Source: Bradyrhizobium genosp. L (GTDB lineage: Bacteria; Pseudomonadota; Alphaproteobacteria; Rhizobiales; Xanthobacteraceae). From it: a stretch of 64,000 nucleotides of DNA. Location of the stretch: the NCBI RefSeq assembly GCF_015624485.1, contig NZ_CP061378.1:2852001-2916000 (forward strand). Direction: 5' to 3'. How positions within the stretch are numbered: position 1 is the first letter of the stretch; every line of letters starts with the position of its first letter. Shown piece after piece: positions 6,959 to 23,310 of the stretch. The notes below the pieces were generated by a model. The model saw only the letters and a list, made by a program, of their open reading frames with translations, searched no databases and was not told the DNA's origin. Made by a program: the position numbers and the translations under genes.

Positions 6959-9109
6959 ATGTCGATGGCCGTCGATTCCTTTGCCGCATCGGTGCGGCGA
7001 TTCTCACCCCGGCTCCTGCTGTCGGAGCTGCTGCTCAAGCAGTGGTTCGAGCCGGTCGTGCCCTTCACCGTGATGATCGGGCTGTGGGTCTATTTCGCGC
7101 TCACCATTCCCGACTACGCCTCGGTGCAGAACTCGGTGTCGCTGCTGCGGCTGTTCGCCGAATTCGGTTTCGTCGCGCTCGCGATGGGCTTTTGCCTCGT
7201 CACCGGCGGCATCGATCTCTCGGTCGGCGCGATCTTCGCGCTGTGCAATTTTGCGGCGCTGTATTTCCTGCTGGTGCGGGAATGGCCGGTCGGCCTGGCT
7301 GTGCCGGCGACGCTTTTGGTCGGTGCTGCCCTCGGCAGCATCAACGGCTTCCTGATCGGCTTCCTGAAGACCCGACCGTTCCTGACCACGCTGGTGACGC
7401 TGATCATCCTGCGCGCCTCGGTCAATCTGCTCAACACCTCCTACGCGCAGGTGTTCGCCACCAATTCGGTGGAGAGCGATGCCTGGGATTTCATCGGCGG
7501 CGGCAGCGTGCTCGGCATCCCGATCAATGCGGCGACGCTGTTCGTCGTGCTGCTGATCTGTCACATCTTCCTGTCGCGCTCGCGCTATGGCTGGCATCTC
7601 ACCGCGATCGGCGCCAGCCGCAAGGCGGCGCGCCATGCCGGCATCCGCGTCCGCCTGATGCTGTTCTCGACCTACGTGCTGTCGGGCACCCTGTGTGCCG
7701 CGAGCGGCATTTTCTACGCTGCACGTCAGGCTTCGACGGATTCCACCACCGGCGTCGGCTGGGAGTTCCAGGCGCTCACTGCCGTCGTGCTCGGCGGCGT
7801 CTCGCTCGCTGGCGGCAAGGGTACGGTGTGGCGGGCGATGATCGGCGCGCTGATCGTCTTCCTCCTGATCAACGGCCTGGTGCGGATGGGCATCCCCGGC
7901 TACGTCACCTCGGCGGTGACGGGTATGATTCTGCTCGCCGCCGTCGGCATCGACGTCAAATGGTCGAAGAACCGCGGCAAGGCGATCCAGAAGATCTATG
8001 TCAATCCGGCCTATGTGGCGCTGGCGCCGGCGCCATCGGTGCAGCGCGGCTCGGCCTCGGCTTACGCCCAGAACGACCGGTTGATCGCGGCGCAGGCGAT
8101 CGGCCTCGACCAGGTCGAGGGACCGGAGGACGTCATCGTCGACCGCCAGGGCCGCGTCTATGGCTCGACCCGCGACGGCAACGTGATCCGTTTCTCGGGG
8201 CCCGATTTCGAGACCCGCGAGGTGTTCGCGCATATCGGCGGCCGGCCGCTCGGCATGCAGTTCGATCGCGACGAGAATCTGATCGTCGCGGTGGCCGGCA
8301 TGGGCGTCTACGGCATCGCGCCCGACGGCCGTGTCTTCAAGGTCACCGACGAGACCAACCGTACCTGGTACAAGCTGAACGACGATTCCCGCCTGCGCAT
8401 GGCCGACGATCTCGACATCGCGCCCGACGGCAAGATCTATTTCAGCGACTGCACCACGCGCTACGAGATGACGACCAACACCCTCGACATCCTCGAGGCA
8501 CGGCCGAACGGCCGCCTGGTCTGCTACGATCCCGCGACCAAGACCACGCGCACCGTCATCAATCACTTCTATTTCCCCAACGGCGTCTGCGTCTCGCATG
8601 ACGGGCGGTCGGTGCTGATCGCCTCGACCTCGCTGTGCAAGATCTTCCGCTACTGGATCGAGGGGCCGAACAAGGGCCGCACCGAGGTCCTGATCGATGA
8701 GTTGCCCGGCAACCCCGACAACATCAACCGCGCCTCCGACGGCACTTACTGGCTGGCGCTGGTCGGCATCCGCACGCCGACCTTCGATCTCTCGGTGCGC
8801 AAGCCCGGTTTCCGCTTGCGCATGGTCAAGCAGGTGCCGGCCGACGAGTGGCTGGCGCCGGGGCTCAACCACGGCTGCGTGCTGAAGTTCAACGAGCAGG
8901 GCGAGGCGCTGGAATCCTGGTGGGATCCGACCGGCACCTCGCATTCGGTGCTGACCTCGATGCGCGAGCACAAGGGCTACCTCTATCTCGGTGGTCTCGA
9001 GAACAACCGGATCGGCCGCGTCAAGCTCGATGGCGCCGACGAGGGCTGGACCGGATACGACGCCTATTGGGGCAACAAGAGCCGGGTGACCGCAGGGGTG
9101 ACGAGGTAA
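6959..9109 (+). CDS. fusion: RbsC-type ABC permease + SMP-30/gluconolactonase-like beta-propeller
   Basis: One 716-residue frame holds two domains. Residues about 25-335 are a multi-span sugar permease, with GFCLVTGGIDLSVGAIFALC and GGVSLAGGKGTVWRAMIGAL. After a linker (about 340-375), residues about 380-700 form a six-bladed SMP-30/strictosidine-synthase-like propeller. Likely metal or catalytic positions are kept: Glu in GPEDVIVD, Asn in FPNGVCVS and Asn in GNPDNINRASDG. No stop codon or frame change interrupts the junction. RbsC-type permeases are expected to end in the cytoplasm, so the enzyme domain would face incoming substrate. The propeller probably hydrolyses a sugar lactone or similar ester; the substrate is unknown. 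Confidence 0.88.
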   Translation: MSMAVDSFAASVRRFSPRLLLSELLLKQWFEPVVPFTVMIGLWVYFALTIPDYASVQNSVSLLRLFAEFGFVALAMGFCLVTGGIDLSVGAIFALCNFAALYFLLVREWPVGLAVPATLLVGAALGSINGFLIGFLKTRPFLTTLVTLIILRASVNLLNTSYAQVFATNSVESDAWDFIGGGSVLGIPINAATLFVVLLICHIFLSRSRYGWHLTAIGASRKAARHAGIRVRLMLFSTYVLSGTLCAASGIFYAARQASTDSTTGVGWEFQALTAVVLGGVSLAGGKGTVWRAMIGALIVFLLINGLVRMGIPGYVTSAVTGMILLAAVGIDVKWSKNRGKAIQKIYVNPAYVALAPAPSVQRGSASAYAQNDRLIAAQAIGLDQVEGPEDVIVDRQGRVYGSTRDGNVIRFSGPDFETREVFAHIGGRPLGMQFDRDENLIVAVAGMGVYGIAPDGRVFKVTDETNRTWYKLNDDSRLRMADDLDIAPDGKIYFSDCTTRYEMTTNTLDILEARPNGRLVCYDPATKTTRTVINHFYFPNGVCVSHDGRSVLIASTSLCKIFRYWIEGPNKGRTEVLIDELPGNPDNINRASDGTYWLALVGIRTPTFDLSVRKPGFRLRMVKQVPADEWLAPGLNHGCVLKFNEQGEALESWWDPTGTSHSVLTSMREHKGYLYLGGLENNRIGRVKLDGADEGWTGYDAYWGNKSRVTAGVTR

Positions 9110-12078: not shown

Positions 12079-12108
12079 TTGACAATTATTTTAAGTATAA
12101 AATATTAT
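12079..12108 (+). promoter_or_regulatory. promoter with embedded MarR-type operator upstream of the anthraniloyl-CoA monooxygenase gene
   Basis: TTGACA (12079-12084) and TATTAT (12103-12108) are 18 bases apart. Between and over them lies an AT-rich motif (12084-12107) with arms TATTTTA / TAAAATA around AGTA. The same motif (AATTRYTTKAAGNNNAAA) recurs at 20067, 20148 and 21561. A repressor bound here would block RNA polymerase. The gene starts at 12176. Confidence 0.65.
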
Positions 12109-12175
12109 CCCTGCATCGGCTCCATGGGAACGCGCTCCGTCCGAGCTCCCGGGCGGCCGCCAACGGGAGATCGCC

Positions 12176-14488
12176 ATGCGCATCGTTTGCATTGGAGGCG
12201 GGCCGGCCGGGCTCTACTTCGGCATCCTGATGAAGATGCTGGATCCCGCGCACCGGATTTCCGTGGTCGAGCGCAACCGGCCCTACGACACGTTCGGGTT
12301 CGGCGTGGTGTTCTCCGACGCCACCATGGACAACATGCGCAAATGGGATCCGGTCACGGCTGATACGATCGAACAGGCATTCAATCACTGGGACGACATC
12401 GAGGTCCTGATCAAGGGCCGGCGGATGCGCACCACCGGCCATGGCTTCGTCGGCATCGGCCGCAAGCGGTTGCTGAACATTTTGCAAGCCAGGGCCGAGC
12501 AACTCGGTGTCGAATTGATCTTCGAGCGCGAGGTCAGTTCCGATCTTGAGTTCCCGGACGCCGACCTGATCGTCGCCTGCGACGGCGTCAACTCGAAGCT
12601 CCGCGTGAAGTATGAGAAAGACTTCCAGCCGGACATGCAGATGCGGCCGAACCGCTATATCTGGCTCGGGACGAACCGTCCGTTCGACGCCTTCACCTTC
12701 GATTTTCGCAAGACCGAGCACGGCTGGTTCCAGGCGCACATCTACAAGTTCGAGGAGGGCACGGCGACCTTCATCGTCGAGACGACCGAGGAGGCGTTTC
12801 TCGCCCACGGCCTCGACAAGATGGACCAGGACGGCTCGATCGCGTTCTGCGAGAACGTGTTCGCCGAGATCCTCGAGGGGCATCATCTGGTCTCCAACGC
12901 GCGGCATCTGCGCGGCTCGGCGTGGCTGTCATTCCCGCGGCTGATCTGCGGCAAGTGGACCGCGTTCAATGGCAGCAGCCATGTCGTGCTGATGGGCGAT
13001 GCTGCCCACACCGCGCATTTCGCGATCGGTTCGGGGACAAAGCTCGCGCTGGAAGACGCAATCGAACTGACCAACCAGTTCAAGCAACATGGCACGGCGC
13101 GCGAGACCATCCCTGCGGTGCTTCACGCTTATGAGGAGCTGCGCCGGGTCGACGTCGCGCGGATCCAGAACGCCGCGCGCAATGCAATGGAATGGTTCGA
13201 GGTGGTCGGCTCGCGCTATGCCGATACGCTGGAGCCGGAGCAGTTCATGTATTCGCTGCTGACCCGCTCACAACGCATCAGCCACGAGAACCTTCGCTTG
13301 CGCGACAAGGCCTGGCTCGAAGGCTACGAGCGTTGGTTCGCCGAGCACAACGGCGTGCCCGCGACCAATGATCGCGTCACGCCGCCGATGCTGACGCCGT
13401 TCAGCATCCGCGGTTTGTCGCTCAACAACCGCATCATCGTGTCGCCGATGGCGATGTATTCGGCGGAAGAGGGCGTGCCGGGCGACTTCCACCTGGTGCA
13501 TTTCGGCTCGCGCGCGCTCGGCGGTGCCGGGCTGATGTTCACCGAGATGACCTGCGTCTCGCCGGAAGCGCGGATCACGCCCGGCTGCTGCGGCTTGTGG
13601 AATGATGCGCAGACTGCGGCCTACAAGCGCATCGTCGACTTCGTGCATGGCAACTCGCAGGCCAAGATCGGCATCCAGCTCGGCCATGCCGGCCGCAAGG
13701 GCTCGACGCGGGTGGCCTGGGAGGGCATGGACGAGCCGCTGCCTGACGGCAATTGGCCGCTGGTCTCGGCATCGGCGGTTCCGTACCTGCCTGACGGGCA
13801 GGTGCCGGAGCCGATGACCCGCGCCGAGATGGACGAGGTGCGCGAGCAGTTCGTTGCAGCGGCCGAACGCGCGGCCACGGCCGGCTTCGATATTCTGGAA
13901 CTGCATTGTGCTCACGGCTACCTGCTGTCGAGCTTCCTGTCGCCGCTGACCAACCATCGCAGTGACGCGTATGGCGGATCGACCGAGAACCGCGCGCGCT
14001 ATCCGCTCGAGGTGTTCCGTGCGGTCCGTGCGGTGTGGCCGGCGGAGAAGCCGATGTCGGTGCGGCTGTCCTGTCACGACTGGGCCGAGGGCGGCAACAC
14101 GCCCGAGGATGCGCTGGCCTTTGCAAAACTGTTCAAGGAGGCCGGTGCCGATCTGATCGATTGCTCCTCCGGTCAGGTTTGGGCCGACGACCATCCGGTC
14201 TACGGCCGGCTCTACCAGACGCCGTTCGCCGACAAGATCCGCAACGAGGTCGGCATCGCCACCATCGCGGTCGGCGCCATCTCGGAGGCCGATCACGCCA
14301 ACTCGATCATCGCCGCCGGCCGCGCCGATCTCTGCGCCATCGCACGGCCGCATCTCGCCGATCCGGTCTGGACGCTGCATGAGGCGGCCAAGATCGGGGT
14401 GACATCGATTGCCTGGCCGAAGCAGTATCAGTCGGGCAAGTCGCAATATGAGGCCAACCTCCAGCGCGCCGCCGGAGCAAAGTCATGA
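12176..14488 (+). CDS. bifunctional anthraniloyl-CoA (2-aminobenzoyl-CoA) monooxygenase/reductase, also annotated salicylyl-CoA 5-hydroxylase/oxidoreductase
   Basis: The 770-residue protein joins two flavoenzymes. Residues 1-about 380 are an FAD monooxygenase of the salicylate-hydroxylase type (GGGPAG at 7-12; [19 protein letters not shown] near 280). Residues about 400-765 are an old-yellow-enzyme domain (HAGRKGS, and [15 protein letters not shown] near 576). This architecture and length match the Azoarcus evansii 2-aminobenzoyl-CoA monooxygenase/reductase, which hydroxylates and then reduces the ring of anthraniloyl-CoA without oxygenolytic cleavage. A CoA ligase suited to making that substrate lies 9 kb downstream. 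The start follows CGGGAGA. The next gene overlaps its stop. Confidence 0.88.
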
Positions 14489-15264
14489 TGCGGTTCTGGC
14501 CCAATGCCCATGCTCTCGTCACCGGAGCTGGCTCCGGCATCGGTGCCGCGACGGCGATTGCGCTGGCAAGGGCCGGCGTCCGCGTCAGCATCGCCGGGCG
14601 CCGGATCGACGCGCTCAAGGCGACGGCATCGTCGCTTGGCGAAAACGCAGGCGCCGTCGTGGCGATCGACGTAACGGATGAAGCCGCCGTGCATCGCGGC
14701 GTTACAGAGATCGAGGCCGAGGCAGGCCCGATCGATATCCTCGTCAACAATGCCGGCAAGGCCGGCAGCGCTCCGTTCGACAAGACCGGCGCCGCGCTGT
14801 GGGCGGAGATGCTGGCGAGCAATCTCTCCAGCGTCTTTCTGGTGACGCATGCGGCGCTGCCCGGCATGGCCAAGCGCGGCCGCGGCCGCGTCATCAACGT
14901 CGCTTCGACCGCAGGCCTGACGGGCTACGCCTACGTCTCCGCCTATGTCGCGGCCAAGCATGGTGTCGTCGGCCTGACGCGGTCGCTGGCGCTGGAATAT
15001 GCCCGGCGCGGCGTCACCGTGAATGCGGTCTGTCCGGGCTATACCGACACGCCGCTGGTCGCCGGGGCCGCCGCCAATATCGTTGCCAAGACCGGGCGCA
15101 GCGAGGACGAGGCACGCGCGGCGCTGGCAAAGGTCAATCCGATGCAGCGGCTGGTGACGCCGGACGAGGTCGCCGATGCGATCCTCTGGCTCGCCTCCGA
15201 AGGCGCCGCATCGATCAACGGACAAGCCGTCGCGGTTGCCGGCGGCGAAGTCTTTACCGGGTGA
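14485..15264 (+). CDS. short-chain dehydrogenase/reductase, probable 3-hydroxyacyl-CoA dehydrogenase step
   Basis: A 259-residue classical SDR: NAD(P) motif TGAGSGIG (about 14-21), NNAG, a catalytic Ser about 13 residues before YVAAK, and PGYTDTPL after it. ATGA overlap with the monooxygenase gene gives translational coupling, so it very likely acts on the ring-reduced CoA product. In A. evansii the non-aromatic intermediate is thought to be degraded by beta-oxidation-like steps, and this enzyme fits the hydroxyacyl dehydrogenase. ATG at 14485 or 14488 could be used. Its precise substrate is inferred from position only. Confidence 0.85.
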
Positions 15265-15275
15265 AGGAACATGCG

Positions 15276-16115
15276 ATGTCCGAAATGAAAGCAAAACTCC
15301 GTCCGTTCAAGGACTATCCCGCAAAGCACTTCCGCTGGTCGACCGAGGACAGCGGCCGCGTCGCGACCATCACGTTGAACCGGCCGGACAAGAAGAACCC
15401 GCTGACCTTCGAGTCCTACGAGGAGCTGCGCGATCTCTTCACTAATCTCAGATATGCATCCGACGTCCGCTCGATCGTGCTGACCGGCGCCGACGGCAAT
15501 TTCTGCTCCGGCGGCGACGTGTTCGAGATCATCGAGCCGTTGACGCGGATGACGATGCCGGACCTGCTCGCCTTCACCCGGATGACCGGCGAGGTGGTGC
15601 GCGCGATGCGCAAATGCCCGCAGATCATCGTCGCCGCGATCGACGGCATCTGCGCCGGTGCCGGCGCGATGCTGGCGCTCGCTTCCGACCTCCGGCTGGC
15701 GACGCCGCAGGCCAAGACCGCGTTCCTGTTCACACGTGTGGGCCTCGCCGGCGCCGACATGGGCGCCTGCGGATTGCTGCCGCGCGTGATCGGGCAGGGC
15801 CGCGCGGCCGACCTGCTTTACACGGGACGCGCGATGAGCGCCGAGGAAGGACAGGCGTGGGGCTTCCACAACCGCCTCGTGCCTTCGGCGGAGCTTGCCG
15901 GCGCCGCGCACGATTTGGCGCGCTCGCTCGCGGACGGGCCATGGTTCGCACATGGCGTGACCAAGACCATGTTCAACCAGGAATGGGCGATGGGCGTCGA
16001 CGAGATGATCGAGTCGGAAGCGCAGGCGCAGGCGATCTGCATGGTGACCGGCGACTTCCGCCGCGCCTTCGAGGCGTTCGCCGCCAAGCAGAAGCCGGCC
16101 TTTGAGGGCAATTGA
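15276..16115 (+). CDS. enoyl-CoA hydratase/isomerase family protein
   Basis: The start ATG 15276 ([11 protein letters not shown]) follows GAAGGA; the frame is open further upstream only as a shadow of the SDR gene. The 279-residue crotonase shows [13 protein letters not shown] (oxyanion-hole region, near residue 75) and [20 protein letters not shown]. It has the family's trimer-forming helical C-terminus. In this operon it would hydrate, isomerise or open the alicyclic CoA ester made from anthraniloyl-CoA. Ring opening by a crotonase is a possibility that the sequence alone cannot settle. Confidence 0.9.
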
Positions 16116-16116
16116 G

Positions 16117-16512
16117 ATGAACCAGATTTTGCAACCGGACGGATGGGCGAAGCCGAGCGGCTACGCCAACGGCATCGCCGCGCGCGGCAAGCAGATATTC
16201 ATCGCCGGCCAGATTGGCTGGAGCGGGCAATGCGTGTTCGAGAGCGATGATCTGGTCGCGCAGATCGGCCAGACCCTGCGCAACATCGTCGCGGTGGCGG
16301 CGGCGGGCGGCGCGGGCCCTGAGCACATCGTGTCGATGACCTGGTATCTGCTCGATCGCAAGGAATACTCCGCGCGGCTGAAAGAGATCGGCGTCGTCTA
16401 CCGCGACGTCATCGGTCGGCGCTTTCCGGCGATGACTGCGATCCAGGTCGCCGGCCTGATCGAGGACCGCGCCAAGGTGGAAATCCAGGCGATCGCGGTG
16501 GTGCCGGATTGA
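16117..16512 (+). CDS. RidA/YjgF/UK114-family protein lacking the usual catalytic arginine
   Basis: A 131-residue single-domain Rid protein (FIAGQIGWS, VVYRDVIGRRFPAMT, KVEIQAIAVVPD). RidA enzymes hydrolyse reactive enamine/imine intermediates using an Arg in the motif FPARS. Here the matching residue is Met106 (FPAMT), as in Rid subfamilies that lack the imine deaminase activity. ATG 16117 begins two bases after the hydratase stop. A Rid protein in an amino-aromatic pathway suggests handling of the 2-amino or imine group after ring reduction, but the lost Arg argues against simple RidA chemistry. Confidence 0.88.
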   Translation: MNQILQPDGWAKPSGYANGIAARGKQIFIAGQIGWSGQCVFESDDLVAQIGQTLRNIVAVAAAGGAGPEHIVSMTWYLLDRKEYSARLKEIGVVYRDVIGRRFPAMTAIQVAGLIEDRAKVEIQAIAVVPD

Positions 16513-16544
16513 CGATGATGCCCAAGTGGCATCAAACGTGCAGC

Positions 16545-16666
16545 GTCGTCCCGGCGAAGGCCGGGACCCATAACCACCGAGCGTCATTACTGCGTGCCGG
16601 TGGAACGACGAGCTCCCTCCGCAGCATCCGCCGCGGAGTATGGGTCCCGGCCTTCGCCGGGACGAC
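16545..16666. repeat. perfect inverted pair of GTCGTCCCGGCGAAGG-type repeats
   Basis: The 26 bases at 16545-16570 are the exact reverse complement of 16641-16666, with about 70 bases between. Each half also folds on itself (CCCGGCGAAGGCCGGG). The left half matches the copy at 45826 with a single change over about 33 bases. It closes the operon that ends with the Rid gene. The remaining bases to 16864 hold no gene. Confidence 0.8.
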
Positions 16667-16864
16667 AGCGGAGAATGCGGCGCCGCTTGCACGTCGGGGT
16701 GACGGGAATAGATGAGAATGCGATGAAGCAATGTTAATCCTAAGCCCAAACAGAGCAGGCCTGCCCTAGTCCTGCACGACAAACCCGCTTGCGGCCCGGC
16801 AAGAGGCCATGCGACCCTAGGCCTGGCTGGTTAACCGTCCTGTGTTCGAGTGGAGTAGCGGACG

Positions 16865-18106
16865 ATGAAGGCGATTATCGTCGGAGGCGGCATCGGAGGC
16901 CTCACCACCGCATTGATGCTGCGTGCGCGCGGCATCGCTTGTGAGCTGTACGAGCAGTCCGACACCATCCGCGAGCTCGGCGTCGGCATCAACACGCTGC
17001 CGCATGCGATCCGCGAGCTGGCCGGGCTTGGCCTGCTCGACAAGCTCGATGATGTCGCGATCCGCACCTACGAATTGTTCTACTTGACCCGGCATGGCCA
17101 GCAGGTCTGGCACGAGAAGCGCGGGCTCGACGCCGGCCATGACGTGCCGCAATTCTCGATCCACCGCGGCCGCCTGCAAGGCGTGATCCATCAGGCCGTG
17201 ATCGACCGGCTCGGTGCGGATGCGATCCGGACCGGCTGCCGGCTCGGCTCGTTCACGCAGGATGAGGGCGGCGTCTCGGCGTTTTTCTTCGATCGCGCGG
17301 GCAGCCATGTGCACACCGCGCGCGGCGACATCCTGATCGGCGCCGACGGCATTCATTCCAAGGTGCGCGAGACGCTGTTTCCGGACGAAGGCGGCCCGTG
17401 CTGGAACGGGCTGATGCTGTGGCGCGGCGCGACCGACTGGCCGGCTTTCCTGACCGGGCGCTCGATGATCATTGCCGGTGGGCTGAATGCAAAGGCCGTG
17501 ATCTACCCGATCGCGCCGGGTTCGAGCCCGGCAAGCCGGCTGACCAATTGGGCGGTGCTGGTGCGGATCGGCGACGGCTCTTCGCCACCGCCGCGCCGTG
17601 AGGGCTGGTCGAATCTCGGCCGGCGCGAGGAGATGATGCCTTACGTCACGAGCTTCTCGATCCCGCAGGTGGATTTCACCGGGCTGATCAGGGCGACGCC
17701 GGAGTTCTGGGAGTATCCGTGCTGCGACCGCGATCCCTTGCCGTACTGGTCGAGCGGCCGCGTCACGCTGCTCGGCGACGCCGCGCATCCGATGTATCCG
17801 GTCGGTTCGAACGGCGCTTCGCAGGCGATCCTCGATGCGCGCTGCCTTGCGGACGCGCTGGCGCGCGCCGAGCATCCGCGCCAGGCGCTAACGGCCTATG
17901 AGCGGCAGCGGCTGCCGATGACCGCCGACGTCGTCGCTTCCAATCGCCGCGGCGGCCCCGAGGGCGTGATCGACGCGGTCGAGCAGCTCGCTCCGCAGGG
18001 CTTCACAGACGTCGATACGATCCTCAACTACGAAGCCCGCGAGGCGATCGTGCGCGGCTATGCCGCCAAGGCCGGCTTCGCCGCGCGCGTGGTGGCGCGG
18101 CAGTAA
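16865..18106 (+). CDS. FAD-dependent monooxygenase (PhzS / 3-hydroxybenzoate 6-hydroxylase-like)
   Basis: The 413-residue group A flavoprotein hydroxylase has the FAD motif GGGIGGL (about 7-13), the DG motif GADGIHSKVRETLF (about 160), and the GD motif LLGDAAHPMYPVGSNGASQA (about 300). It would use NAD(P)H and O2 to hydroxylate an aromatic or heteroaromatic ring. It lies between anthranilate genes, so its substrate may be a precursor feeding the pathway, for example an indole or kynurenine derivative; that is inference. It is flanked on both sides by repeat elements and may be transcribed alone. Confidence 0.85.
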   Translation: MKAIIVGGGIGGLTTALMLRARGIACELYEQSDTIRELGVGINTLPHAIRELAGLGLLDKLDDVAIRTYELFYLTRHGQQVWHEKRGLDAGHDVPQFSIHRGRLQGVIHQAVIDRLGADAIRTGCRLGSFTQDEGGVSAFFFDRAGSHVHTARGDILIGADGIHSKVRETLFPDEGGPCWNGLMLWRGATDWPAFLTGRSMIIAGGLNAKAVIYPIAPGSSPASRLTNWAVLVRIGDGSSPPPRREGWSNLGRREEMMPYVTSFSIPQVDFTGLIRATPEFWEYPCCDRDPLPYWSSGRVTLLGDAAHPMYPVGSNGASQAILDARCLADALARAEHPRQALTAYERQRLPMTADVVASNRRGGPEGVIDAVEQLAPQGFTDVDTILNYEAREAIVRGYAAKAGFAARVVARQ

Positions 18107-18170
18107 TTCAGACGGAGACGGCGTTATCCGTCACCCTAAGAGGATGCGAGGATCTATCCTTGCCCACGGG

Positions 18171-18273
18171 TGTCATCGCCCGGCTTGACCGGGCGACCCA
18201 GTACGCCGCGGCCGCTCGGCTCAATCACAACTGCCTCTGGAATACTGGATCACCCGCATGCGCGGGTGACGAC
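18171..18273. repeat. inverted pair of short palindromic repeats (CGCCCGGCTTGACCGGGCG type)
   Basis: TGTCATCGCCCGGCTTGACC (18171-18190) continues into GGGCGACCCAGTA. The facing element TACTGGATCACCCGCATGCG (18243-18262) continues into CGGGTGACGAC. The ends CCAGTA / TACTGG are complementary, and each half contains its own hairpin. It separates the monooxygenase gene from the convergent cupin gene; nothing else is seen in 18107-18304. Confidence 0.6.
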
Positions 18274-18304
18274 ACCGAGTAAGCTGAGCATCCGTTACCA
18301 TACG

Positions 18305-18757
18305 CTAACCGGGCGGCGGCGGCAGGAAGTGGATGTTGTGCTCGGCGGCGAGCCGCACCACGTCGTCCGGGTTCTGCTCCTTCATGTTGTGGATCGCCCA
18401 GAACAGGTCGTAGAGCCTGCGGGTCGGCGACACCCAGAACAGCGTCTTGGCCGGCTGCTGCGACTTGTTGAAGATGCCGTGCGGCTTTCCCATCGGCAGC
18501 CGCACCAGGTCGCCGGGCGTCGCAGATTCATCGGCGCCATCGAGAAAGAAATCGAGCTTGCCCTCGAGGATGTAGAGATACTCATCCTGGTCGGGATGGA
18601 TGTGCGGCGGCACGAAGGTGCCGGGCGGAAAGGTCGCGTGCCAGGAGAAGGAATGCTCGCTGCGGGTCTTCGGCACATAGATCTGGCCGAGGATGTTCCA
18701 GGAGATGCCCTGGATGCCCTCATTGGCGCGGGTGATGCCGGCGATCTCGTCTTTCAT
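18305..18757 (-). CDS. cupin-domain protein
   Basis: A 150-residue single-cupin protein. Metal-binding motif 1 is clear (PPHIHPDQDEYLYILEGKLD: His, His, Glu), and the second motif includes PHGIFN. Start ATG 18757 is preceded by AGGAGA. It is 23 bases downstream of the solute-binding-protein gene on the same strand, so both are probably cotranscribed. Small cupins near aromatic catabolism genes are often dioxygenases, isomerases or binding proteins; the sequence does not decide which. The C-terminus is Pro-rich (PPPPG). Confidence 0.8.
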   Translation of the reverse strand: MKDEIAGITRANEGIQGISWNILGQIYVPKTRSEHSFSWHATFPPGTFVPPHIHPDQDEYLYILEGKLDFFLDGADESATPGDLVRLPMGKPHGIFNKSQQPAKTLFWVSPTRRLYDLFWAIHNMKEQNPDDVVRLAAEHNIHFLPPPPG

Positions 18758-18780
18758 GATTGCGTCTCCTGTTGTGGACG

Positions 18781-19947
18781 TTATTTGGCCGCGCAGTCCT
18801 TGGCGTAGCGGTCGCCGTAATCCGAAAACACCTTTTCGACGATCTCGGTCTGGAATTTGCCGTCCGGCCGCTTCGCCACCTTGGTCAGGTAGAAGTCCTG
18901 GATCGGATAGCCGTTGGTGTTGAACTTGAAGTGACCGCGCAGCGAGGTGAAGTCGGCCTTCCTCAGGGCCGCGGCAACCGCGTCCTTGTTGCTGAGGTCG
19001 CCCTTCACGGCCTTCACCGCGCTGTCGATCAGCATCGCCGCGTCATAGGCCTGCATCGCATAGGTGCCGGGCACGCCGTTATAGGCGGCTTCATAAGCCG
19101 CGACGAACTTCTTGCTCTGGGGATTGTCGAGGTTGGGCGCCCAGTTCGCGCCGCCAAACATCCCGACCGCGGCGTCCTGTTGCGCCGGCAGGGTGGATTC
19201 ATCGACCGTGAAGGCGGACAGCACCGGCAACGTGGCGCCGGCCTGCTTGTACTGCTTCACCAGATTCACGCCCATGCCACCCGGCATGAAGGTGAACAGC
19301 GCGTCCGGTTTCAGGGACGCGATCTTGGAGAGCTCGGGCTGGAAATCCAGCGTGTTCAGCGGCGTGTAGGATTCTTCCACGACCTCGCCCTTGTAGTCGA
19401 GCTTGAAGCCGGCAACCGAGTCGCGGCCGGCCTGATAGTTCGGCACCAGCAGATAGACCCGCTTGTAGCCGCGGTCCTGCGCCACCTTGCCGAGGATTTC
19501 GTGCACCTGGTCGTTCTGGTACGAGGTCACGTAGAAGAACGGATTGCATTCCTTGCCGGCGTAGCTCGACGGCCCGGCATTGGGGCTGATCAAGAAGGTC
19601 TTGCTGTCGGTGACCGGACGATGGATCGCAAGCAGGATGTTGGAGAAGATCGGGCCGACCACGAAATCGACCTTGTCGCGCTCCAGAAGCCCGCGCACCT
19701 TGACCACGGCAGCGTCGGGCTTCAGCTCGTCGTCGGCATTGACGATCTCGACCTCGCGACCGGCCATCTTGCCGCCGAGGTCCTTGATCGCGAGCGCAAA
19801 GCCGTCGCGCACCTGCTGGCCGAGTGCCGCCGCAGGACCCGACGTCGTGACCAGCACGCCGATCTTGATTTTTTCCTGCGCGGCAGCCGGCGTGATCGCA
19901 GCCCCAAGCAATGCCGTCATCACCGCCAATCTGGTCAGCCGTGTCAT
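18781..19947 (-). CDS. ABC transporter substrate-binding protein (Leu/Ile/Val- or aromatic-acid-binding type)
   Basis: Start set at ATG 19947 (MTRLTRLAVMTALLGAA), which opens a good signal peptide ending ITPAAAQ; the longer upstream frame has no such feature. The 388-residue product has the type I binding fold (KIKIGVLVTTSGPAAALGQQ near the mature N-terminus). Such proteins in soil alphaproteobacteria often bind aromatic acids. No permease or ATPase is encoded nearby, so it is an orphan component. It is divergent from the MarR gene, with two operator-like motifs between them, which ties it to the anthranilate region. Confidence 0.88.
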   Translation of the reverse strand: MTRLTRLAVMTALLGAAITPAAAQEKIKIGVLVTTSGPAAALGQQVRDGFALAIKDLGGKMAGREVEIVNADDELKPDAAVVKVRGLLERDKVDFVVGPIFSNILLAIHRPVTDSKTFLISPNAGPSSYAGKECNPFFYVTSYQNDQVHEILGKVAQDRGYKRVYLLVPNYQAGRDSVAGFKLDYKGEVVEESYTPLNTLDFQPELSKIASLKPDALFTFMPGGMGVNLVKQYKQAGATLPVLSAFTVDESTLPAQQDAAVGMFGGANWAPNLDNPQSKKFVAAYEAAYNGVPGTYAMQAYDAAMLIDSAVKAVKGDLSNKDAVAAALRKADFTSLRGHFKFNTNGYPIQDFYLTKVAKRPDGKFQTEIVEKVFSDYGDRYAKDCAAK

Positions 19948-20066
19948 ATGATCCCCCCGATCATTGCCCTGATGTTCTGCTCCCAGCTTAGTCTGAGGCG
20001 CAGGATCGCTGCAAGCGATGTGGCGTCGCGGCGGGCAGGTGACATGGAGCATGCAAGCGTCGCGCC

Positions 20067-20090
20067 AATTGCTTGAAGGTTAAAGAAATT
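20067..20090. promoter_or_regulatory. MarR-type operator candidate, copy near the binding-protein gene
   Basis: The site matches AATTRYTTKAAGNNNAAA at 20067-20084 and lies about 120 bases upstream of the minus-strand binding-protein start. It is the first of two copies in the divergent region. Confidence 0.5.
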
Positions 20091-20147
20091 GTCAAATACG
20101 GGCGAGCAGATCTCCTCGATCCGCAATTGTCCTTGCGGCGCGCCGCG

Positions 20148-20171
20148 AATTGCTTGAAGCTCAAAATATCC
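20148..20171. promoter_or_regulatory. MarR-type operator candidate, copy near the marR gene
   Basis: The site matches AATTRYTTKAAGNNNAAA at 20148-20165 and contains TTGA-AGC-TCAA. It lies about 40 bases upstream of the regulator's ATG, a position suited to autoregulation. Confidence 0.55.
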
Positions 20172-20209
20172 GGTCCGACCATAATCCGCCGCGGAGGCCC
20201 GATCGCTGC

Positions 20210-20704
20210 ATGATCCTCGATTCAGAAACCAAAGCCGTCGAACTGCCCGACGATCACGGCACCGAGCTCAGGCTGTGGCTGCGCCTGTTGACCTGCACCA
20301 CGCTGATCGAAGGCGAAGTGCGCAGCCGGCTGCGCGAAAAGTTCGACGTCACGCTGCCGCGCTTCGACCTGATGGCCCAGCTCGACAAGGTGTCCGACGG
20401 CATGACGCTGTCCGATCTGTCGAAGCGGATGATGGTCTCCAACGGCAACGTCACCGGCCTCGTCGAACGACTGGTCGAATCTGGTCATATCGACCGCCGA
20501 ACGTCCGAGACCGATCGTCGCGTGCAGTTCATCCGGTTGACCAAGCTCGGCCGCGCCGAATTTCGCAAGATGGCCGCGGAGCACGAGAAATGGATTGCCG
20601 ATATCTTCGGCGACCTTTCGCCGAAGGATATCCGCGAGTTGATGCGGCTGCTCGCCAAGGCCAAGGGCTCCGCGCAGCGGTCGGCCAAGGCGAGGACAGC
20701 GTAA
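20210..20704 (+). CDS. MarR-family transcriptional regulator
   Basis: The ATG at 20210 (MILDSETKAVELPDD) is chosen because GGAGG lies upstream; a TTG at 20150 falls inside the operator motif. The 164-residue protein has the MarR winged helix: MTLSDLSKRMMVSNGNVTGL as helix-turn-helix, then the wing DRRTSETDRRVQFIRLT. MarR proteins of this kind usually repress aromatic degradation genes and release on binding the acid or its CoA ester. Operator-like copies upstream of this gene, the CoA ligase and the monooxygenase support control of the anthranilate genes. The hydrolase gene follows after 3 bases. Confidence 0.92.
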   Translation: MILDSETKAVELPDDHGTELRLWLRLLTCTTLIEGEVRSRLREKFDVTLPRFDLMAQLDKVSDGMTLSDLSKRMMVSNGNVTGLVERLVESGHIDRRTSETDRRVQFIRLTKLGRAEFRKMAAEHEKWIADIFGDLSPKDIRELMRLLAKAKGSAQRSAKARTA

Positions 20705-20707
20705 GCC

Positions 20708-21523
20708 GTGACCGGGATCGACTACGAGGTCGAGTACAACAACCGCGCCCGGGTGCCCGAGAACCCGGCGCTGATGGCCGGTTGGGCACGGGACTCCGCC
20801 GCCTATCGCGAGCTGCACCAGCCGCGGCGGCTGACCTATGGTCCCAGCACTCGGAACGTGATCGACCTGTTCGAGGGGAGCGGCGACGGGCCGCTCGTCG
20901 TCTTCATCCATGGCGGCTATTGGCAGGCGCTCGACGGCTCGTCCTCGAGCCATTGCGCGCGCGGGCTCAACGGCCACGGCATCAGCGTAGCGGTGCCGAG
21001 CTACGATCTCTGTCCCAGCGTCGCGGTTGCCGACATCATCGGCCAGATGCGGGCGGCATCGCACAAGCTCGCGAAGCTCGGGCGTCCGCTCGTGGTCAGC
21101 GGACACTCGGCGGGCGGACATCTCGCCGCATGTATGCTTGCGACCGATTGGCCGGCCTATGACGCGTCCCTGCCGAAGGATCTGGTCAGGGCAGCCTATG
21201 CGATTTCCGGCCTGTTCGAGCTCGAGCCGCTGGTCACGACCTCCGTCAACAAGGCGCTGGGTCTCGACCACGACGCGGCAAAGGCCGCAAGCCCGCTCTA
21301 TTGGAAGCCGCCCGCGGGCAAGACACTCGACGCCGTCGTCGGCGGCAATGAGAGCGCCGAATATCACCGGCAGAGCCGGACCATGGCGGAAGTCTGGGGC
21401 AGGGCGGGCGTGGCGACGCGGTTCGGCGTTGTGCCCGATGCCAACCATTTCACCGCGATCGCACCGCTCGCCGACCCCGACTCCGCGATGGTCAAGCGGC
21501 TGAAGGAGCTTACGCAAATCTAG
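20708..21523 (+). CDS. alpha/beta hydrolase, kynurenine formamidase-like
   Basis: GTG start at 20708, 3 bases after marR, so cotranscribed. The 271-residue hydrolase has the oxyanion motif HGGYW (about residue 64), the nucleophile elbow GHSAGGH (about 138) and a late His in DANHF. HGGYW with this layout is typical of the formamidase/esterase branch that includes arylformamidases, which release kynurenine from N-formylkynurenine. Next to anthranilate-CoA genes, an enzyme that releases anthranilate or a related amine from an N-acyl precursor is attractive, but an ordinary esterase cannot be excluded. Confidence 0.8.
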   Translation: MTGIDYEVEYNNRARVPENPALMAGWARDSAAYRELHQPRRLTYGPSTRNVIDLFEGSGDGPLVVFIHGGYWQALDGSSSSHCARGLNGHGISVAVPSYDLCPSVAVADIIGQMRAASHKLAKLGRPLVVSGHSAGGHLAACMLATDWPAYDASLPKDLVRAAYAISGLFELEPLVTTSVNKALGLDHDAAKAASPLYWKPPAGKTLDAVVGGNESAEYHRQSRTMAEVWGRAGVATRFGVVPDANHFTAIAPLADPDSAMVKRLKELTQI

Positions 21524-21560
21524 TGCCGCGCGGATTTTCCGATTTCCGCCTCTTGCGCCG

Positions 21561-21584
21561 AATTGTTTTAAGTATAAAATGATT
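21561..21584. promoter_or_regulatory. MarR-type operator/promoter upstream of the CoA ligase gene
   Basis: This copy matches AATTRYTTKAAGNNNAAA and shares 17 of its first 18 bases with the copy at 12084. TTGCGC (21553-21558) and TAAAAT (21575-21580) could form a promoter with 16-base spacing that the site overlaps. The ligase gene starts at 21667. Confidence 0.6.
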
Positions 21585-21666: not shown

Positions 21667-23310
21667 ATGTCAGGTGAAATTCCCGGGCTTGGCCCGTCGG
21701 GGCATGTCGACGATTTCGCGCGACGCAATCTGCCGCCGGTTCAGCAATGGCCAAAACTGCTGCTCGAGCGGCCGGAATTCCAGTATCCCGATTATCTCAA
21801 CGCCGCGGTCGAACTGACCGATCGCATCGTCGCGCAGGGCATGGGCGACAACATCGCGCTGATCGGCAATGGCCGCCAGCGCACTTACAAGGAACTGACC
21901 GATTGGTCGAACCGTCTGGCGCACGCCTTGGTGGAGAATTACGGCGTCAAGCCCGGCAATCGCGTGCTGATCCGCTCCGGCAACAACCCGGCGCTGGTCG
22001 CGGCCTGGCTCGCGGCGACCAAGGCCGGCGCGGTCGTCGTCAACACCATGCCGATGCTGCGCGCGGGCGAGCTGGCAAAAATCGTCGACAAGGCCGAGAT
22101 CTCGCTGGCGCTGACCGACAGCCGCATCGCCGACGAGCTGGTGGCCTGCGCCAAGACCAGCAAATTTCTCAAGCAGGTCGTCAATTTCGACGGCACCCAG
22201 AACCATGACGCCGAGCTTGATCGCATCGCGCTGAACAAGCCGGTGAAGTTCGATGCGGTGAAGACCGGACGCGACGACGTCGCGCTGCTCGGCTTCACGT
22301 CCGGCACGACCGGCGAGCCGAAGGCGACCATGCATTTCCATCGCGATCTCCTGATCGTCGCCGACGGTTATGCGCGGGAAGTGCTGCAGGTGACGCCGGA
22401 CGACGTGTTCGTGGGCTCGCCGCCGCTGGCCTTCACGTTCGGTCTCGGCGGGCTCGCGATCTTCCCGTTGCGGTTCGGCGCCACCGCGACGTTGCTGGAA
22501 AACGCAGCACCGAGCGAGATGATCAGGATCATCGAGACCTACAAGGCGACCATCTGCTTCACCGCACCGACCGCCTATCGCGCGATGATGGCCGCGATGG
22601 ACAAGGGCGCCGACCTCTCTTCGCTTCGGCTTGCGGTCTCGGCCGGCGAGACGCTGCCGGCGCCGGTGTTCGAGAGCTGGATCCGGAAGACCGGCAAGCC
22701 GATCCTCGACGGGATCGGCAGCACGGAGCTGCTGCACATCTTCATCACCAACCGTACCGGCAGCGCCGTTGGCGGCACGACGGGAACGCCGGTCGGCGGT
22801 TATGAGGCCCGGATCGTCGATGAGAACATGAACGATCTGCCGCCTGGCGCGGTCGGCAAACTGGCGGTACGCGGTCCGACCGGCTGCCGCTATCTCGCTG
22901 ACAGCAGGCAGGCCAATTACGTCCGCGACGGCTGGAACGTCACCGGCGACGCCTTCATGTGTGACGCGAACGGCCGGCTGTCATTCGTGGCCCGCGCCGA
23001 CGACATGATCATCTCCGCCGGCTACAACATCGCCGGTCCGGAGGTCGAGGCGGCGCTGCTTGGGCATCCCGACGTCGCGGAGTGCGCCGTGATCGGCGTA
23101 TCGGACGAGGAGCGCGGGCAGATCGTCTCGGCGTTCGTCGTGCTGAAGCAGGGTGCGCGCAACGACGAGTCCGAGGTCAAGCTGTTGCAGGATCATGTCA
23201 AGGCGACGATCGCGCCGTACAAATATCCCCGCGCGATCTCGTTCGTGGAGGCGTTGCCGAAGACGCAGACCGGCAAGATCCAGCGATTCAAGCTGCGCGA
23301 GGCGAGCTAA
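21667..23310 (+). CDS. 2-aminobenzoate (anthranilate)-CoA ligase, AMP-forming
   Basis: The 547-residue ANL-family ligase has the P-loop-like FTSGTTGEPKATMHFHRD (about residue 211), the adenylate motif IGSTELLHIF, and the C-terminal catalytic Lys in PKTQTGKIQR (about 537). It would activate anthranilate with ATP and CoA to anthraniloyl-CoA, the substrate of the monooxygenase/reductase at 12176. The assignment to anthranilate rests on overall likeness to benzoate-family ligases plus this partner gene; a related aryl acid is possible. It has its own operator-bearing promoter and ends convergently with the efflux gene across a hairpin. Confidence 0.87.
   Translation: MSGEIPGLGPSGHVDDFARRNLPPVQQWPKLLLERPEFQYPDYLNAAVELTDRIVAQGMGDNIALIGNGRQRTYKELTDWSNRLAHALVENYGVKPGNRVLIRSGNNPALVAAWLAATKAGAVVVNTMPMLRAGELAKIVDKAEISLALTDSRIADELVACAKTSKFLKQVVNFDGTQNHDAELDRIALNKPVKFDAVKTGRDDVALLGFTSGTTGEPKATMHFHRDLLIVADGYAREVLQVTPDDVFVGSPPLAFTFGLGGLAIFPLRFGATATLLENAAPSEMIRIIETYKATICFTAPTAYRAMMAAMDKGADLSSLRLAVSAGETLPAPVFESWIRKTGKPILDGIGSTELLHIFITNRTGSAVGGTTGTPVGGYEARIVDENMNDLPPGAVGKLAVRGPTGCRYLADSRQANYVRDGWNVTGDAFMCDANGRLSFVARADDMIISAGYNIAGPEVEAALLGHPDVAECAVIGVSDEERGQIVSAFVVLKQGARNDESEVKLLQDHVKATIAPYKYPRAISFVEALPKTQTGKIQRFKLREAS

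Follow-up and report, generated by a model that had tools for sequence, protein, structure and literature searches.

A conserved AT-rich dyad as the probable operator of a MarR regulon for anthranilate breakdown in Bradyrhizobium

We analysed an AT-rich element that recurs among the genes of a putative anthranilate cluster in Bradyrhizobium genosp. L, within a window of 64 kb (the whole stretch of DNA under study, C1:2852001-2916000 of the genome; positions without the C1 prefix are those of the window). The cluster includes ACMR, a two-domain flavin monooxygenase/OYE-type reductase of 770 amino acids (12176..14488, + strand), which matched the profile NF006101 at 1363 bits (cut-off 1078) and whose solved relatives cover the reductase half alone at the threshold used. 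Genes for an SDR protein, an enoyl-CoA hydratase and a RidA-type protein follow it (14485..16512, + strand, profile matches), and a flavin monooxygenase gene lies further on within the cluster (16865-18106). Profile matches also identified a cupin (18305-18757) and an ABC binding protein (SBP, 18781-19947), both on the minus strand. Divergent from these is marR (20210..20704, + strand), which encodes the proposed repressor of 164 amino acids, with an alpha/beta hydrolase gene downstream (20708..21523, + strand, profile matches) and then an aryl-CoA ligase gene (21667..23310, + strand, 547 amino acids). The ligase scored barely above the cut-off of TIGR02262, and its best solved relative is the anthranilate-CoA ligase 4wv3. 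We take the gene set of the ACMR pathway to be a two-domain ACMR together with an aryl-CoA ligase, SDR, hydratase and RidA; all of these were found, and the cluster probably breaks down anthranilate. The MarR protein scored above the Pfam gathering cut-offs for MarR_2 (44.9 bits, cut-off 27) and MarR (43.8, cut-off 24.6), and below the cut-offs of the named MarR equivalogs in NCBIfam, among them BilQ (51.6, cut-off 125), FabT (49.5, cut-off 200) and HpaR (36.8, cut-off 121.2). Elsewhere in the window, a 716-amino-acid open reading frame (6959-9109) appeared by eye to be an ABC permease running on into an SMP-30-like domain.

The pattern under study is the 18-mer AATTRYTTKAAGNNNAAA, which matched exactly at 12084, 20067, 20148 and 21561, each time on the + strand and at precisely the four places named in an original prediction made from the letters of the DNA. 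Each copy begins a candidate operator of 24 bp. Site 1 (12084..12107) lies 92 bases ahead of the ACMR start (12176) and fills the spacer of a TTGACA-18-TATTAT promoter (12079-12108; spacer 18, 11 of 12 consensus bases), an overlap that the same prediction had correctly described. The divergent region holds two: site 2 (20067..20090) on the binding-protein side, 120 bases ahead of that gene's start (about 19947, minus strand), and site 3 (20148..20171) on the marR side, 62 bases ahead of the marR start (20210) and a putative site of autoregulation. Site 4 (21561..21584) is in the CoA-ligase promoter, 106 bases ahead of the start (21667); like site 1, it has counterparts in the promoters of relatives. 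A scan of the window allowing up to 2 mismatches returned no place beyond these four, and none ahead of the flavin monooxygenase gene, and 100 dinucleotide shuffles of the window contained no match to the pattern. In a genome-wide search (7,401,610 bases) exact matches were confined to the window copies; because the pattern had been derived from them, a count in the source genome is no test of it. Many unrelated matches genome-wide would have spoken against the prediction, and the number of exact matches elsewhere in the 7.40-Mb genome is zero. One mismatch was found at 2 places and two mismatches at 13, and because the resulting 19 matches are not far above the 11 obtained with a reversed-pattern control, such loose matches carry little meaning.

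Conservation was assessed in loci encoding a relative of the window MarR, for which 340 stretches were found and the best 80 kept (L020-L099; MarR 85-99% identical). Pathway promoters, defined as -260..+30 of the start of ACMR, SBP, marR, CoA ligase, SDR or kynU, held 341 of the 354 matches with up to 2 mismatches, and the reversed pattern matched once in the same 1,447,523 bases. A site was present in 62 of 65 ACMR promoters (L049, L066 and L074 being without), in the SBP-marR divergent region of 79/79 loci (with two + strand sites in 48) and in 74/74 CoA-ligase promoters. These loci fall into two gene arrangements: one as in the window, found in 27 loci whose ACMR is 88-94% identical and in L037, in which ACMR is cut off, and a second type with ACMR 50-60% identical and a different gene order. 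Among second-type loci, the SDR promoter carried a site in 27/32 (L071, L072, L080, L084 and L089 did not). In relatives the dyad also stands ahead of the second ACMR type, an SDR-hydratase operon and kynU-kynA. A comparison of different promoters of the same locus that was blind to the pattern returned the motif as the best 18-mer match in 68 of 97 pairs, with a mean identity of 14.1/18 versus 12.8 in shuffles (shuffle maximum 15), a shuffle null that covers identity alone. Among more distant loci that we picked (MarR 51-69% identical), 15 of 20 carried, by our reading, a site at the ACMR, SDR or marR promoter with up to 2 mismatches. Loss of the motif from orthologous promoters, which the original prediction had set against itself, was thus not seen in the 80 loci, and the motif fades below about 55% MarR identity. 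We also observed that in L046, L049 and others the regulator and CoA ligase were kept (the ligase often about 84% identical) while ACMR was swapped for the 50-60% type and the operator retained.

The 18-mer as a whole operator was abandoned in favour of a 24-bp dyad, about AATTRYTTKARG.CYTAAARYAATT, of which it is the stronger side and which the original prediction had overlooked. Across the orthologous loci the motif columns were nearly invariant and the flanks variable. The symmetry is clear in relatives: near-perfect palindromes such as AATTATTTTAGGCTTAAAGTAATT occur at second-type ACMR promoters, and others such as AATTATTTTAAGCTTAAAGTAATT in distant loci. In the window, 8, 9, 5 and 8 of 12 positions paired at sites 1 to 4, respectively, and site 2 is the clearest dyad of the four, while site 3 has a weak right half. 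A genome scan with the 24-bp consensus at 3 mismatches recovered sites 1, 2 and 4, together with one place outside the window (C1:2984446), and missed site 3.

We then related the motif to marR across 296 genomes of the family, the source genome included, of which 143 encode a MarR relative (E<=1e-25). The exact pattern occurred in 65 of the 296 genomes (123 matches; 1 match for the reversed pattern), that is, in 63/143 genomes with a marR relative versus 2/153 without (Fisher p about 1e-21). Counted by hand at the level of genus, the figures were 14/29 with marR versus 1/18 without (p = 0.003). Most exact matches (101/123) had a listed marR no more than 15 kb away, and 37 of the 56 marR loci at >=80% identity had an exact match within that distance. 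A chance origin of the motif was rejected on the shuffles, its rarity in the genome, the survey of 296 genomes and the 80 orthologous loci.

Taking these sequence comparisons together, we think that the AT-rich element most probably serves as the DNA target of the repressor whose gene lies in the cluster, and we consider it probable, with good confidence, that all four copies act as operators within a single MarR repressor regulon for the aerobic breakdown of anthranilate via its CoA thioester. The original prediction of one MarR regulon over at least three promoters can accordingly be widened to four, and the one-regulon reading stands because the presence of the motif follows that of marR across genomes and genera. 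A number of results weigh against it. Shuffling of each window site gave symmetry P values of 0.15, 0.0006, 0.22 and 0.04 for sites 1 to 4, so that symmetry is clear at one site of four (20067) and at one of the two in the marR region, and the sigma-70-type promoter scan that succeeded at site 1 found none at sites 2, 3 and 4. The 80 loci share ancestry, their counts are not independent events, and this kinship stays in the tests. Five of the more distant loci (L145, L148, L152, L153 and L154) had no such site at up to 2 mismatches, and three of them, L152-L154, keep a recognition helix similar to that of the window MarR. In the survey, 22 of the 123 exact matches were not near any listed marR, 19 of the 56 marR loci at >=80% identity lacked an exact match within 15 kb, and at lower identity such a match was found in 10/44 loci (60-69%), 4/15 (50-59%) and 6/35 of those listed below 50%. 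Seventeen of the 22 marR-distant matches were examined; two lay beside transporter genes and 15 were left without explanation. The former two (L165, 7186; L167, 7248) are near-palindromic exact copies far from marR and beside branched-chain-type transporter genes, and that of L165 also lies ahead of an acyl-CoA dehydrogenase gene. It is possible that they are further members of the regulon.

What we observed is a set of rare sites that are conserved at these promoters, take the form of a dyad in relatives and co-occur with marR; from this we infer binding by this MarR and repression rather than activation. A MarR dimer (20210-20704) would bind 24-bp dyads overlapping or adjoining the promoters of four units, whose predicted boundaries are ACMR-SDR-hydratase-RidA, binding protein-cupin, marR-hydrolase and CoA ligase. 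When substrate is absent, MarR would block RNA polymerase at these promoters, that of its own gene included (autoregulation). A repressor that blocks the polymerase, as with the CouR and BadR boxes described below, fits because site 1 fills the -35/-10 spacer. Once anthranilate is taken up, basal CoA ligase would convert it to anthraniloyl-CoA, and either this thioester or anthranilate itself, the ligands that we propose by analogy with CouR and BadR, would bind MarR and release it from the DNA. The recognition helix, RMMVSNGNVTGLVERL, was unchanged in the 12 commonest variants printed, which cover 69 of the 80 loci. The helix alone is no predictor of the site, because L153 and L154 keep a similar helix without the motif.

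The sites could be operators whose main regulator is another protein, such as a paralogous MarR encoded elsewhere, or could be shared by several paralogs. The same genome does encode a MarR paralog that is 45-47% identical to the window MarR, in five of the six loci of the genus that encode a 47-49% MarR an exact motif lies 286-303 bases from that gene, and the matches far from any listed marR would also find a place in such a scheme. We nevertheless regard it as rather improbable, given that the sites flank marR itself in every one of the 79 loci, that motif and marR co-occur, and that the same-genome paralog has a different recognition helix (LLMVSNGAITALVQKL) and a variant pair of sites in its own locus. 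An AT-rich promoter or UP-like element acting with no repressor would account for the coincidence of site 1 with a strong consensus promoter and for the AT-richness of all four sites. This explanation appears very improbable against the lack of an exact match in the rest of the genome, the near-palindromic form in relatives, the variable distance to start codons and the failure of the promoter scans at the other three sites.

The regulon may instead be real and serve salicylate or another aryl-CoA, as the NCBIfam name of the ACMR family (NF006101, salicylyl-CoA 5-hydroxylase/oxidoreductase) would have it and as the lack of a kynureninase in a search of the source genome would allow. However, among solved structures the nearest relative of the CoA ligase is an anthranilate-CoA ligase, and in relatives the genes of tryptophan breakdown join the regulon. 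A kynureninase-tryptophan dioxygenase pair lies near the cluster in 9 second-type loci (identity above NCBIfam cut-offs was checked in L060), and in all nine the interval from kynU to a hydrolase gene contains a site that differs from the pattern at 2 or 3 positions (GATTATTTCAAGCTTGAAATTTAT in five). An Aminobacter plasmid brings together kynA, kynU, ACMR and a 70% MarR, with one 2-mismatch site ahead of ACMR. The source genome also has an iad-like locus, and such loci are described as making anthranilic acid (PMC9613470). The genomic context thus favours anthranilate as the substrate, though the family name differs, and we think salicylate or another aryl-CoA unlikely.

The iad-like locus (auxin to anthranilate) lies outside the window at C1:2958000-2996000; the MarR paralog is encoded there, and a variant pair of operators is conserved. 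It encodes an indolepyruvate oxidoreductase (beta family above the cut-off, alpha subunit below it) and a Rieske dioxygenase; two open reading frames tried there as further MarR proteins had no solved-structure match. Ahead of a gene of the Asp/Glu-racemase family, itself present in 55 of 146 genomes of the genus, stands AATTATTTAAAGCCTAAAGTATTT (C1:2984446), followed 201 bases further by AATTATTTTGTGCTTGAAATATTT. With up to 3 mismatches, and counting the source locus, the first site of the pair was found in 30/30 loci and the second in 29/30 (L212 being without it). At position 9 the first variant site reads A, in contrast to the T or G of the window sites. Two of the loci with a 47-49% MarR were examined, and the exact motif stands ahead of ACMR (74%) in L164 and of an acyl-CoA dehydrogenase gene in L163; L164 brings a 48% MarR and this ACMR together with the exact motif and with genes that resemble those of the lower iad-like locus. 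The iad loci take auxin to anthranilic acid, and neither a ligand nor a DNA site is known for their second MarR, IadR2 (PMC9613470). Tentatively, and as a possibility that we would not yet favour, the window MarR and its paralogs may form an operator clan that provides a second, lower control point in auxin and tryptophan breakdown: IadR senses indole-3-acetic acid (IAA) at the top, and the clan, perhaps including IadR2, would sense anthraniloyl-CoA or anthranilate at the bottom via AATTRYTTKAAG-type dyads.

None of the open-licence papers listed by our searches appeared to describe a regulator of the anthraniloyl-CoA route, and the present sites offer a concrete operator and regulon for it. 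Since the breakdown of auxin (iad) and that of tryptophan (kyn) converge on anthranilate, a shared operator clan may reveal how the two routes are connected in plant-associated bacteria, and the operator sequences are candidate DNA sites for IadR2. Several described systems resemble the proposed one. CouR of Rhodococcus jostii RHA1 is a MarR repressor with an inverted-repeat box over the -35 region at four promoters, one of them between divergent genes, and an early intermediate of its pathway, a CoA thioester, releases it from the DNA; its box, cATTGA-N5-TCAATg, is not of the CTTNAA type seen in the window, and it serves another pathway (passages of PMC4737184). BadR of Aromatoleum sp. CIB and R. 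palustris is likewise a MarR repressor, of an aryl/alicyclic-CoA pathway, with operators at the -35 boxes of divergent promoters and, in strain CIB, the first CoA thioester as effector, but its operator, CAATnnATTG, spans 10 bp as opposed to the 24-bp AT-rich dyad of the window (passages of PMC9795900). Common to this type are operators over the promoters of an aryl-CoA pathway, including that of the CoA ligase; overlap with a consensus promoter was seen here at site 1 alone. IadR and IadR2 are MarR regulators of a route ending in anthranilic acid, and IAA releases IadR from its 24-bp site (passages of PMC9613470); the solved IadR 7kfo matched the window MarR only remotely (E = 9.7e-8, 35.4 bits), too weakly to be counted as close. 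Its best solved relative is 3boq, a MarR-family structure without a named function (residues 13-150 of 164, E = 3.8e-21), which is equally similar to the same-genome paralog. We regard the operator set as a familiar type of switch, in a pathway for which such control appears not to have been mapped before.

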